This document shows positions 17,969-41,428 of a stretch of DNA of 45,786 bases, one piece after another; the first letter of the stretch is position 1; the number at the start of each line of letters is the position of its first letter. Origin of the DNA: Chitinophagaceae bacterium (GTDB taxonomy: Bacteria > Bacteroidota > Bacteroidia > Chitinophagales > Chitinophagaceae); assembly GCA_947381435.1 (NCBI GenBank), contig CANCVE010000024.1, positions 1 through 45,786 of the forward strand, written 5' to 3'. The position numbers were made by a program, and so were the translations under genes. Under the pieces are notes generated by a model. It saw only the letters and a list, made by a program, of their open reading frames with translations. It was not told the origin of the DNA and made no database searches.

Positions 17969-18178
17969 CCCGAAGTCATTTCAAGGGGGTTATAAATGAC
18001 TTCGGGGTCGCCCGAAGTCACTTCGGGGGAGTTAGAAATGACTTCGGGGTCGCCCGGAGTCACTTCGGGGGGGTTAGAAATGACTTCGGGGTCGCCCGGA
18101 GTCACTTCAGGGGAGTTAGAAATGACTTCGGGGGCGTCCGAAGTCACTTCGGGGAAGATAGAAATGGACTTCGGAGAA
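17969..18178. repeat. Tandem array 1: five units of exactly 42 bp
   Basis: The units begin at 17969, 18011, 18053, 18095 and 18137. Each contains CCCGAAG-TCA-CTTCGGG (degenerate in the first unit) and a second TGACTTCGGG. A 10-bp stem TGACTTCGGG/CCCGAAGTCA can form at each of the four unit junctions, with only G-U changes in later units. Each unit is itself two diverged 21-bp halves. All frames stay open because 42 is a multiple of 3; the resulting peptide repeats (EVTSGEL/EMTSGSP type) are probably not made. It lies between divergent genes, 450 bp before fumC. Confidence 0.9.
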
Positions 18179-18259
18179 TTTATTATTGCCCAAAAACTAT
18201 TCTTCTACCCTTTTATAAAGCGTATTTGGGATGAATTTAGATAAATATTTCGCAACAAT

Positions 18260-18332
18260 ATGATTGTGGGTTTGTAGAGACAAGGCATGCCTTGTCTCTA
18301 CAGGATTGCCTTGTCTCTACAACCACAATCAT
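18260..18332. repeat. Nested palindromic element (GTAGAGACAAGGC type)
   Basis: The outer arms ATGATTGTGG (18260-18269) and CCACAATCAT (18323-18332) enclose three copies of a TGTAGAGACAAGGCA-type sequence, one direct and two inverted. The first two meet in the palindrome GACAAGGCATGCCTTGTC. The second inverted copy gives an alternative pairing for the first. Elements with a TAGAGAC core are common dispersed repeats in Bacteroidota and cyanobacteria. No reading frame is associated with it. Confidence 0.85.
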
Positions 18333-18584
18333 TACCCAATAATTCTAAATATTACGCTACTTGTTGTGTAAAAATAGTTGCTGTATGGTGTGGAATGTTT
18401 CTATCGTTAAGCACAACATCATTCATTATTTTCTTATTAAACTAAAAAGGTTTGCTAAAAATAAAAGGATATAGTCCCTCCAATACTAGTTTCTCAATCA
18501 TTTTCGTAGTTCAAATTCTCATTCAGGTAAAGAAGCCATGCAAAAACTTTGATACAACTCATAAAAAAAGAGCGGTTAGTCTCC
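18333..18584. other. Gap upstream of fumC with no recognised feature
   Basis: AT-rich sequence between the nested palindrome and the fumC promoter. I find no plausible reading frame, tRNA fold, strong hairpin or repeat in it. Confidence 0.5.
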
Positions 18585-18592
18585 TACTTTTG
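18585..18592 (+). promoter_or_regulatory. Candidate fumC promoter -7 box
   Basis: TACTTTTG matches the Bacteroidota -7 consensus TAnnTTTG and is followed by CGCCC. It is 38 bp before the fumC ATG with an A-rich leader between them. A good TTG at the -33 position is not seen. Confidence 0.5.
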
Positions 18593-18630
18593 CGCCCGAA
18601 ATAAAATAAATTAATAATAAAACGAAAGTT

Positions 18631-20028
18631 ATGGAATTTAGAATTGAAAAAGATACGATGGGTGAGGTAAAAGTACCCATCAACGCTATGTGGGGCGCTC
18701 AGACACAACGTAGTATTGAAAACTTTAAGATTGCCCAAGACATAAACCGTATGCCGAAAGAAATAATAAAGGCATTTGCGTACTTAAAAAAAGCTGCAGC
18801 TTTAACCAATCTTGATGCAGGCATTTTGAGCCAAGAAAAAAGCGACCTTATTGGGCAGGTTTGTGATGAAATATTAGAAGGAAAACTAGACGAATATTTT
18901 CCATTGGTAGTTTGGCAAACAGGTAGTGGCACGCAAAGCAACATGAACGTAAACGAAGTGGTTGCTTACCGTGCACACGTTATTAAAGGTGGTGCATTGA
19001 CAGATAAGGATAAATTTATTCATCCAAATGATGATGTAAATAAATCTCAATCTAGCAACGATACTTTTCCTACTGCGATGCACATTGCTGCTTATAAGAT
19101 TTTAACAGAAGTAACTATTCCTGGCATCGAAAAATTGCGCGATACACTACAAGCTAAGAGCAAAGAATATATGCACGTAGTAAAAATAGGCCGTACACAC
19201 TTTATGGATGCTACGCCGCTTACGGTAGGGCAAGAACTGAGTGGCTATGTAAGCCAATTGAACCACGGATTGAAGGCTATTAAAAATACTTTAGAGCATT
19301 TGAGCGAACTTGCTTTGGGTGGTACTGCCGTAGGAACAGGTATTAATACACCAAAAGGCTATTCGGTAAATGTGGCAAAACACATTGCTAACCTTACTGG
19401 TTTACCTTTTATTACTGCCGAAAATAAGTTTGAAGCATTGGCGGCTCATGACGCAATTGTAGAAGCTCATGGTGCATTGAAAACAGTAGCTGCTAGCTTA
19501 ATGAAGATTGCAAACGACATCAGAATGCTAAGTAGCGGACCAAGAAGTGGTATTGGAGAATTATTTATTCCAGATAATGAACCAGGATCTTCTATCATGC
19601 CAGGTAAAGTAAACCCAACACAATGTGAAGCTTTAACGATGATTGCTGCACAAGTTATGGGTAACGATGTGGCCATAAACATTGGTGGAAGTATGGGACA
19701 TTTTGAATTGAACGTGTTTAAACCAGTGATGATTTACAACTTCTTGCACAGTGCAAGATTGATAGGCGATGGTTGTGTTAGCTTTAATGACAAATGCGCT
19801 GTAGGCATTGCTCCATTGGAAGCAAACATTAAAAAACATGTGGATAATAGCTTGATGTTGGTAACTGCGCTTAACACTAAGATTGGTTATTACAAAGCTG
19901 CCGAAATAGCACAAACCGCGCACAAAAATCATAGCACATTAAAAGAAACTGCTATTAAACTAGGTTACTTAACTGCCGAGGAATTTGATGCATGGGTAGT
20001 TCCTGTTGAAATGGTTGGAGAAATATAA
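18631..20028 (+). CDS. fumC: Class II fumarate hydratase
   Basis: This enzyme interconverts fumarate and malate in the TCA cycle and needs no iron-sulfur cluster. The 465-residue product is normal in length. Motifs seen are the N-terminal [75 protein letters not shown] and the superfamily signature [11 protein letters not shown], whose first Ser lies in the mobile catalytic loop. Its closeness to the nuo operon has no obvious operon meaning, as it is transcribed alone on the plus strand. Confidence 0.97.
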
Positions 20029-40151: not shown

Positions 40152-40175
40152 ACTTTTCTTTTTGATGTTTATTGA

Positions 40176-40943
40176 TTAATTATTCTTGATTATTTTAATT
40201 GGAGCTATTCCTACTGCCTTTAGTGTATATGTTCCAGCCGCAAGCTGTGCCACATTCCAATTGATAGTATTATTTCCTGCTTGGCAACTAGCGGTTTTAT
40301 TTATCACCGTTCTACCTAAAGCATCTACCAATTGTAATTGATAGGTCTTGTTTTCAGCAGCATTAAAGTTGATGGTCATTTGCGTAACTACGGGGTTAGG
40401 ATATACCTTTAAGGTAGTAGCAATGGCAGAGCGAAGATTTACCAAAACAAGTTGCGAATACTTGCCTAGTCCGTTATTATCCACTTCTTTCAATCGGTAA
40501 TACGTAACACCTTCTGTTACTAGATTATCGTTATAATTGTAAAGTTCATTGCCATTACCTCCTTTAGCAGGTAGAGAAGCTAAGAAAGTAAAGTTATTGC
40601 TAGCGGAGGCCTTCTTTTCTACTTCAAAATGATGAACATTTTGTTCGTGCGTTGTTTTCCAAGTAAGCAATGCTTGGTTGCCTTGTAGCGATGCAGTAAA
40701 AGACAATAACTGCAAGGGCAATGGGTTAGAAACTTCATAAGGTTGTTGAACTCCTTGTGTAACCGTGTTATTACCATCCGAATAAGTATCATCGACTAGT
40801 TGACCAATTGAATAGCTAACTGTTCCATTTGTTCCTTTGGTATCGCCACCTGCTGCCACAGGACTTTGTTGTGCTTGAGATAGTGTAGAGAAGCCCAACA
40901 AGACAAAGGGCAATAAGAATGTTTTCTTTTTATGAATATTCAC
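40176..40943 (-). CDS. Secreted protein with type IX secretion C-terminal sorting domain
   Basis: The 255-residue product starts at GTG 40941-40943 and has a signal peptide (LLPFVLLGFSTLSQAQ). A middle Fn3-like part LLSFTASLQGNQALLTWKTTHEQNVHHFEVEKK is followed by a T9SS type A sorting domain: LKVYPNPVVTQMTINF, YQLQLVDALGRTV and AAGTYTLKAVG near the end. It should be exported through the outer membrane. It lies 24 bp before the collagen-like gene and is probably in one operon with it. Confidence 0.88.
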   Translation of the reverse strand: MNIHKKKTFLLPFVLLGFSTLSQAQQSPVAAGGDTKGTNGTVSYSIGQLVDDTYSDGNNTVTQGVQQPYEVSNPLPLQLLSFTASLQGNQALLTWKTTHEQNVHHFEVEKKASASNNFTFLASLPAKGGNGNELYNYNDNLVTEGVTYYRLKEVDNNGLGKYSQLVLVNLRSAIATTLKVYPNPVVTQMTINFNAAENKTYQLQLVDALGRTVINKTASCQAGNNTINWNVAQLAAGTYTLKAVGIAPIKIIKNN

Positions 40944-41096
40944 ATTGAAATTTTTAATTTTAGTAATGCAAGATTACAGTTGAGTGGCATTTAACTTCAC
41001 CTTGCTTTAGGGTAATTTATGCAAATAGCAAGCATAATATATGCAGAGAGATGCTTGCAGCATGACAATGCGGGTAGGCTGCTTATTTTGTTAGTG

Positions 41097-41193
41097 CGTC
41101 TGAATCAGGATTAGATTGATATTAGGATTAGCAAGATTAGCTAGCTCATTAATCCTGCCTATCCTTTAATCCTATAAATCCTGATTCAGACAA
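41097..41193. repeat. Inverted repeat with GTCTGAATCAGGATT ends
   Basis: GTCTGAATCAGGATT (41098-41112) and AATCCTGATTCAGAC (41178-41192) are exact inverse copies. The interior has several ATTAG/CCTAT strings that can pair partly. Elements with these ends are widely dispersed in Bacteroidota genomes as far as I know. It lies in the divergent gap before tandem array 4. Confidence 0.85.
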
Positions 41194-41223
41194 CATAATA
41201 GTCGCAATGCTAACCAAGAAGCC

Positions 41224-41428
41224 GCCGTCTGGTAAGCCACATAATAAATTGTATCCAAACGGTCGCCGTCTGACCTCCCGTGAACACAATTGTACTCAGA
41301 AGGCAGCCGTCTAGTCTGCCACGAACCCAATTGTACCTAGACGGTCGCCGTCTAGCCTCCCCCGAACATAATTGTACTCAGACGGCGGCCGTCTAGCTTG
41401 CCGTGAACACATTTATACCTAGACGGCG
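41224..41428. repeat. Tandem array 4: five units of exactly 41 bp
   Basis: Units begin at 41224, 41265, 41306, 41347 and 41388. Each begins GCCGTCT and ends AGACGGC or a variant, which forms a stem of about 9 bp, with an inner ACAATTGTA-type palindrome. The pair of positions 8/33 is G-C in units 1 and 2 and A-T in units 3 and 5. The pair 9/32 is G-C in units 1, 3 and 5 and A-T in unit 2. These compensating changes point to selection on pairing. It lies between divergent genes. Confidence 0.92.

Follow-up and report, generated by a model that had tools for sequence, protein, structure and literature searches.

The window analysed here, a whole stretch of 45,786 nucleotides, is one entire contig (C24) of a 4.88-Mb metagenome-assembled genome (MAG) of a Chitinophagaceae bacterium in 231 contigs, and it carries four intergenic tandem arrays, numbered 1 to 4 along the contig (Table 1). 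We find that arrays of this kind adjoin genes of three protein families, namely DUF6261 and two families that we call P (~220 aa) and Q (~320 aa), that the repeat period depends on the family, that gene-linked arrays have relatives elsewhere without a partner gene and that the sequence of the units drifts. The arrays can be understood as the DNA half of modules that consist of a protein and a phased array, accompanied by many orphan arrays, an interpretation to which we assign a probability of about one half. Throughout, G000 denotes this genome, other G labels other genomes, C labels contigs and L labels fetched stretches.

Association of arrays with protein families

The first five DUF6261 genes met (one in the window and two each in G003 and G005) all had an adjacent array, and these five of 42 loci had prompted the hypothesis. 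DUF6261 loci were collected by profile search in genomes of the genus, in other genera of the family and in a sample of the phylum. Tandem Repeats Finder (TRF) detected an array beside 15 of the 16 loci of the genus, which came from 4/6 genomes searched, at 7/7 loci of two other genera of the family and at 11 of the 20 usable loci of the phylum sample, where 12/395 genomes had the gene; in this last sample the weak locus L333 was excluded and no reading frame was obtained for L332 in later analysis. Among the genomes of the family that were searched, 3/147 had a DUF6261 gene, G000 included, and the gene of the window is the only one found in this genome.

A uniform rule (best lag 21n or 40-42 and multiples, score >= 20, within 500 bp upstream) gave an upstream array at 31/42 DUF6261 loci across Bacteroidota. 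At L304, L307 and L308 the array was downstream only, and L321 had arrays on both sides. Outside the genus of the window the count was 20/26, with L330 being AT-rich and not above its own shuffles and L335 lying at the threshold. By comparison, control genes in the samples of other genera, whose genomes mostly differ from the DUF6261-bearing ones, had an upstream array in 1/441 cases and control genes of the genus in 17/195; control genes from the same loci (1/14 with array) were too few to use. The distance between array and start codon was 24-405 bp at the DUF6261 loci, and 60-200 bp at 22 of the 31. The DUF6261 protein matches PF19775 only (Pfam), and the family is reportedly mentioned in a study of daptomycin-resistant streptococci. 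No relatives were detected in viral contigs (two scans), plasmids or phages. By eye, a CTAAC or CCAAC ... GTTAG element similar to that of the window spacer (Table 1) was seen upstream of the four near DUF6261 genes in G003 and G005.

Families P and Q were found from genes beside arrays. Family P had an upstream array at 13/17 loci and a downstream array at none; without the three model seeds, 10/14 new loci had an upstream array. The 17 loci comprise those of this genome (6/10 with an upstream array, two of the misses being near a contig edge) and those of two other families of the phylum, with 3/3 in G419 and 4/4 in G325 (weak matches). Among P genes outside the 17, an upstream array is also present at L267 and at the partial L286. 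The distance to the start was 63-151 bp in all 13 cases. Family Q had an array beside 10/10 loci: upstream at 7/7 in this genome (three of them seeds), the distance from the profile match being 9-434 bp, and downstream at 3/3 weak matches in G331. The Q seeds L036 and L272 likewise have an upstream array, and L188 is cut by the contig end. Two single cases were met in addition, a 265-aa gene by the C19 relative of array 2 and a 229-aa gene by a 41-bp array. Pfam gave no family for two P, two Q, the 265-aa and the 229-aa proteins, no similarity of DUF6261, P and Q to one another was detected here, and P relatives were absent from viral contigs in one scan.

The protein family predicts the repeat period, and this is our strongest single result. 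All 31 upstream arrays of DUF6261 have a base unit of 40-42 bp with a lag-21 identity of 0.09-0.39, and all 13 P arrays have a 21-bp base with a lag-21 identity of 0.46-0.87; the two ranges are separate, if only by the small step from 0.39 to 0.46. The Q arrays have a base of 41-42 bp, with lag-21 identities of 0.22-0.30 in the seven of this genome and 0.27-0.37 in the three of G331.

Some side observations concern these loci. A resemblance of P to an OAAH-type lectin (7umj) was weak (E 3.4e-7 summed over four stretches, best single 0.034) and was not used; it lies in the C-terminal half, at profile A2 positions ~109-204. Across a Q-linked array, a divergent gene (L118:12347-13687) encodes an AbiJ_NTD4 domain, which is known from phage defence, and a gene across a P-linked array (L125:16493-17254) gave a weak, below-cut-off NCBIfam match to the Sso10a chromatin protein (E 0.0021). 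Related genes with a secretion-tail domain adjoin different modules: DUF6261 in the window, P on C113 and Q in G005. The Bacteroidota promoter element TAnnTTTG was not found within 200 bp upstream of 20 genes, a few start codons being some bases off.

Arrays across the genome

The sequence-only reading of the window had proposed that a common process makes or keeps such arrays, to be checked by the spread of periods and the excess of dyads over shuffled sequence in the genome. Our genome sample consisted of two 400-kb sets and the window (846 kb, ~17% of the genome), in which arrays were counted by TRF at a length of >= 80 bp and a period of >= 15. Periods are sharply peaked: 64/74 TRF arrays lie within 1 bp of 21 or 2 bp of 42, 63, 84 or 126. 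These 64 rows represent 62 arrays, with one array split over adjacent stretches (L128/L148) and one row (period 125) not of the kind. The base unit is 20-22 bp in 45 rows, 41-43 bp without 21-bp similarity in 18 and neither in one. Among intergenic lags of 5-130, only 7, 14, 21, 41, 42, 63, 84 and 126 exceed the median by more than 0.008, and periods of three and five turns (31-32 and 52-53) are absent from the sample except for one 31-bp array. Dyads were significant against shuffled units (p <= 0.05) in 19/63 arrays where ~3 would be expected, but in only 1/15 of the arrays that TRF called at 21-22 bp. In the best TRF array per gene-linked locus they were found at 17/33 DUF6261, 4/12 P and 2/9 Q loci. 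Dyads are common, not defining, and were rejected as a defining feature on the counts of 19/63 and 1/15. Because periods are sharply peaked and dyads exceed shuffles, the sample supports both a common process and a tie to the helix (two and ~four turns), although the earlier proposal had missed the two classes of base unit, the dispersed sequence families, the lack of generality of the dyads (1/15 at 21-22 bp) and the link to protein genes.

Extrapolation from the sample gives ~370 arrays per genome, or 1.3% of the sequence. For the 42 arrays with both neighbours, 23 gaps are co-directional, 13 divergent and 6 convergent, with a gap space of 55, 27 and 13 kb, respectively. Arrays track intergenic space without a preferred gap orientation; as a class, terminators and promoters were both rejected on this distribution. 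Under the open reading frame rule of the script used for gap counts, some arrays are labelled genic, since a frame may stay open when the period is a multiple of three. Heptad coding repeats (21 bp being seven codons) are unlikely since periods of 41, 43, 44 and 22 occur.

Sequence is shared with another sampled array by 24/64 rows, in 10 groups, one of which holds the split array. Array 1 has relatives in G000 on C184, C32 and C66; the stretches fetched around these three yielded no gene of DUF6261, P or Q. Array 2 has relatives on C19, C13, C9 and C38. The one on C19 is 68 bp ahead of the unnamed 265-aa gene (L134:6061-6858), and the array of this gene has four relatives without the gene (C9, C13, C38 and window array 2). 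The DUF6261-linked array 4 has five relatives of 70-80% identity without the gene, on C10, C8, C190, C2 and C56. In the sampled part, unlinked relatives were further seen for P arrays (three) and a Q array (one), on contigs that yielded no P or Q gene. Altogether 5/13 linked arrays have unlinked relatives and the rest have none in the sampled part.

Other comparisons bear on how arrays and genes come apart. The counterpart of array 3 in G003 (84% identity) lies near the same pseudouridine-synthase gene and directly upstream of a P gene that is missing at window array 3. On C13 and C38 (L010:1463-1936; L008 reverse) an array and ~230 bp are duplicated up to a start codon; beyond this point C38 lacks the adjacent 166-aa gene and resumes 3' of it. 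Here one array has clearly outlived a neighbour gene, though a gene outside the three families.

Units are more similar within their own array than to other arrays of the family (0.82/0.74, 0.79/0.69 and 0.83/0.77 in three families), while the nearest unit lies in the same array in only 13/22, 11/18 and 9/16 cases; because of these two observations, local amplification and exchange both seem to act on the units. In the array family of DUF6261 (L029-L033 and window 41224-41428), each of the two main half-site types, AGACGG and AGAAAG, can stand in either arm, and 18 units include all four pairings, as would be expected of half-sites that are used independently. The flanks of the six arrays of this family share nothing except one 18-bp match (E 0.03). 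In the family of array 2, a 14-bp tail, GAAGACCTTAAAAT, ends 4/5 arrays, two of these four being copies of one segment, and is absent from the window copy.

Of the 13 arrays sampled from 12 other genus genomes (284 kb in total, with unequal coverage and only a few kb from some genomes), 9/13 were of the helix-period kind. The corresponding counts were 0/1 in other genera of the family (350 kb), where the sole array had a period of 168 (8 x 21) without internal 21- or 42-bp similarity, and 0/5 in other families of the order (276 kb). In G011, another 80 kb was covered, and 10/11 arrays (>= 60 bp) had 21n or 41-bp periods. The restriction to the genus is not absolute: among 80 fumC loci from many taxa, Parabacteroides L104 has a 22-bp-based array and L039, from a Chitinophagaceae MAG, an 83-bp array. 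Turnover is fast. Upstream of fumC, 5/13 genus genomes have an array with a period of 21, 42, 63 or 105 and differing sequences, and none was found in the others; at this site the array of G005 is distantly related to window array 3 (65% identity). An assembly artefact was rejected as gene-linked arrays recur in other genomes, including the single-contig G469, and DUF6261 as the maker of all arrays was rejected as G006 and G010 have arrays without DUF6261.

The arrays of the window

TRF detects all four arrays that the sequence-only reading had reported, and the gap orientations hold as described there (Table 1). The arrays had been credited with one design. They fall into two classes: arrays 1 and 3, with lag-21 identities of 0.59 and 0.65, are higher-order 21-bp arrays, whereas arrays 2 and 4 (0.21 and 0.26) have no 21-bp substructure and a base of 41-43 bp. 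The proposed link to the helix is supported, but the base in arrays 1 and 3 corresponds to two turns and not to the proposed four or so. No sequence is common to the four, as stated; each of them, though, is related to arrays at other places in this genome. Compared with shuffled units, dyads are clear in arrays 1 and 2 (p 0.01; stems CCCGAAGT/ACTTCGGG and TTGCCGTTT/AAACGGCAA) and borderline in array 4 (p 0.05 in one test and 0.06 in another; palindrome AGACGG-N3-CCGTCT), but the dyad of array 3 is not above shuffles (p 0.36). Rfam covariance models at the gathering score gave 0 matches in the window, to which this search was applied.

Table 1. Arrays of the window and features of the DUF6261 locus.
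Feature	Positions	Strand	Description	Neighbours and gap
Array 1	17969..18174	.	TRF: 42-bp units x 4.9	unnamed 102-aa gene / fumC; divergent
Array 2	25713..25868	.	TRF: 43-bp units x 3.6; worn unit extends to ~25890	recX / outer-membrane beta-barrel gene; co-directional
Array 3	27973..28147	.	TRF: 42-bp units x 4.2	carbon-nitrogen hydrolase / pseudouridine synthase; convergent
Array 4	41224..41428	.	TRF 41247-41427: 41-bp units x 4.4; worn first unit from ~41224	gene with secretion-tail domain / DUF6261; divergent
Spacer between array 4 and DUF6261	41440..41494	+	short inverted repeats TTAGCAAT/ATTGCTAA and CTAAC/GTTAG	
DUF6261 gene	41547..42311	+	PF19775, E 2.7e-34; 254 aa; starts ~120 bp past array 4	

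Other repeats were noted in the window. A ~95-bp repeat at 41098-41193 is dispersed in the genome and matched in many genus genomes, sometimes in tandem. A short palindromic repeat at 18260-18332, distinct from the arrays, has matches on both strands in several genus genomes and in G021. A separate 7/14-bp repeat class lies near gene ends (26708-26735, 28776-28850 and 42412-42483), and its lag-14 peak is also seen in the samples of other genera.

Discussion

Our interpretation of the arrays as the DNA half of protein-plus-array modules would work as follows. At least three families (DUF6261, P and Q) have an array by the gene, mostly 60-200 bp upstream and with a sequence that varies between genes, and the protein would assemble on its own array as on a ladder of sites at whole helical turns. 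Because the sites would be spaced by whole turns, spacing and often the palindrome would be kept while the sequence drifts. Spread may occur by copying of the array or of array-plus-gene segments and by exchange between units, and arrays may often outlive the gene, leaving an estimated 370 arrays for ~20 recognised partner genes in this genome. We infer that the protein binds to the array, as helical spacing, independently changing palindrome arms and unlinked sites agree less with an RNA partner than with a ladder bound as DNA. Among the processes suggested by the sequence-only reading, a nucleoid-type protein phased on the helix is possible and near to our best explanation; a generic structured RNA or dyad extrusion has no support here beyond the dyads. 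A wider version must be held more tentatively and is, in our estimate, rather less than an even bet: that of a Bacteroidota-wide module in which unrelated families of small proteins each have a private array with a fixed number of helical turns per unit (two for P, ~four for DUF6261 and Q), the protein polymerises, and related arrays let it bridge or mark sites.

Several results weigh against the module interpretation. The uniform rule gave no array at 8/42 DUF6261 loci: the best lag is 41 at L311 (score 18) and L329 (score 16), L326 is marginal, L337 has a TRF 84-bp array farther upstream, and L315, L327, L328 and L336 showed no array signal by this rule. It likewise left 4/17 P loci without an array, two of them near a contig edge, and the P genes L198, L255 and the partial L143, outside the 17, have none. 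The models of P and Q were partly seeded with members picked for adjoining arrays. In this genome, 59/433 control genes have an array <= 500 bp upstream (44/433 downstream), a high rate that we attribute to the density of orphan arrays, and ~55/64 array rows have no recognised partner gene. In 80 kb of G469, a genome with five DUF6261 genes, no dispersed arrays were seen. A sequence-based search for structural relatives of DUF6261 gave none that was significant, and a single-sequence AlphaFold model with a predicted local distance difference test score (pLDDT) of 35 was discarded, so that neither points to a DNA-binding fold.

Known systems offer other explanations; in layout, type III toxin-antitoxin and REP/RAYT systems (below) come nearest, but the arrays lack a defining feature of each. 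In type III toxin-antitoxin systems (ToxIN, CptIN and TenpIN), tandem repeats lie upstream of the gene and the repeat RNA is the antitoxin of an endoribonuclease (PMC5086642). By analogy, transcripts of the arrays could yield repeat RNAs that hold the protein in check by binding to it. A row of 40-42-bp repeats ahead of a single gene does recall toxI-toxN, with its repeats of 34-36 nt (PMC5086642), and hairpins are possible in many units. We nevertheless consider such a protein-RNA pair unlikely. An RNA partner fits less well: the array is upstream at most loci but downstream, against the usual layout, at six (L304, L307, L308 and three Q loci). Related arrays occur far from any partner gene found, and arrays called at 21-22 bp mostly lack dyads. 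No toxin family, including ToxN, CptN and TenpN, was matched at the level of sequence families by the proteins scanned with Pfam, NCBIfam, PHROGs and PADLOC (among them two P and two Q), and the window has no Rfam match. A mobile system that resembles repetitive extragenic palindromes (REP) and their associated tyrosine transposases (RAYT), in which the protein would copy or move array units into new intergenic sites, has an equally low probability in our view. RAYT is an IS200/IS605-related transposase whose gene always lies between two inverted copies of its own palindromic repeat, the REP, while more copies are scattered over other intergenic sites (PMC2817692). Copies of the arrays are dispersed between genes in this genome too, with one gene-linked array and several unlinked relatives on both strands per family, and the 14-bp tail GAAGACCTTAAAAT is kept in 4/5 arrays of the array 2 family (two being copies of one segment). 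However, the proteins scanned have no tyrosine (Y1/HUH) transposase domain or other nuclease family: DUF6261 matches PF19775 only, and two P, two Q, the 265-aa and the 229-aa proteins have no Pfam match. The array is moreover nearly always one-sided (DUF6261: 31/42 upstream, one of these on both sides, and 3 downstream only), and the six DUF6261-family flanks are unshared beyond the 18-bp match.

A further likeness is found in Porphyromonas gingivalis, of the same phylum, where the accessible part of PMC4596501 describes dispersed intergenic tandem repeats (BrickBuilt with 23 nt, 464/PgRS with 41 nt, and others with 22 nt) as resembling miniature inverted-repeat transposable elements, with ~10-20 copies and, in BrickBuilt, terminal inverted repeats, a leader and a tail. 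Both sets are intergenic and form families without mutual similarity, and the base units of 20-22 and 41-43 bp found here are close to those of P. gingivalis. In contrast, that part of the account names no partner protein, whereas the arrays here are linked by family to protein genes, ~370 arrays are estimated per genome here, and shared enclosing ends like those of BrickBuilt/464 were not seen in the two families tested, apart from the 14-bp tail in 4/5 arrays of the array 2 family. The Beggiatoaceae have abundant intergenic direct repeats of TAACTGA (PMC4679880); these consist of one heptamer common to the sites and are nearer to the separate 7/14-bp class of this genome. Neutral minisatellites that arise by slippage and unequal exchange, with a helix-length bias that sets the period and genes that hitch-hike, would agree with the higher-order periods of 42, 63, 84 and 105, the variable copy number and the fast turnover upstream of fumC. 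This explanation appears quite improbable since it leaves unexplained the array-gene link across families (20/26 vs 1/441), the setting of the period by the protein family and the near absence of 31- and 52-bp periods. It is very improbable that the array is only a cis-regulatory operator through which the partner gene regulates itself; the usual place upstream of the start would suit an operator, but the downstream cases and the unlinked relatives by unrelated genes do not.

Among the papers listed by literature searches, the coverage of which excluded most subscription journals, none was seen to describe the pairing of arrays and proteins. The present results point to an undescribed protein-plus-array module in this bacterium and in distant relatives. 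If this is true, it would provide the first functional lead for DUF6261 and two unnamed families, it might explain why P. gingivalis has minisatellites of 41 and 22/23 nt, and it would represent a pairing of protein and DNA that is seemingly kept by spacing more than by sequence.

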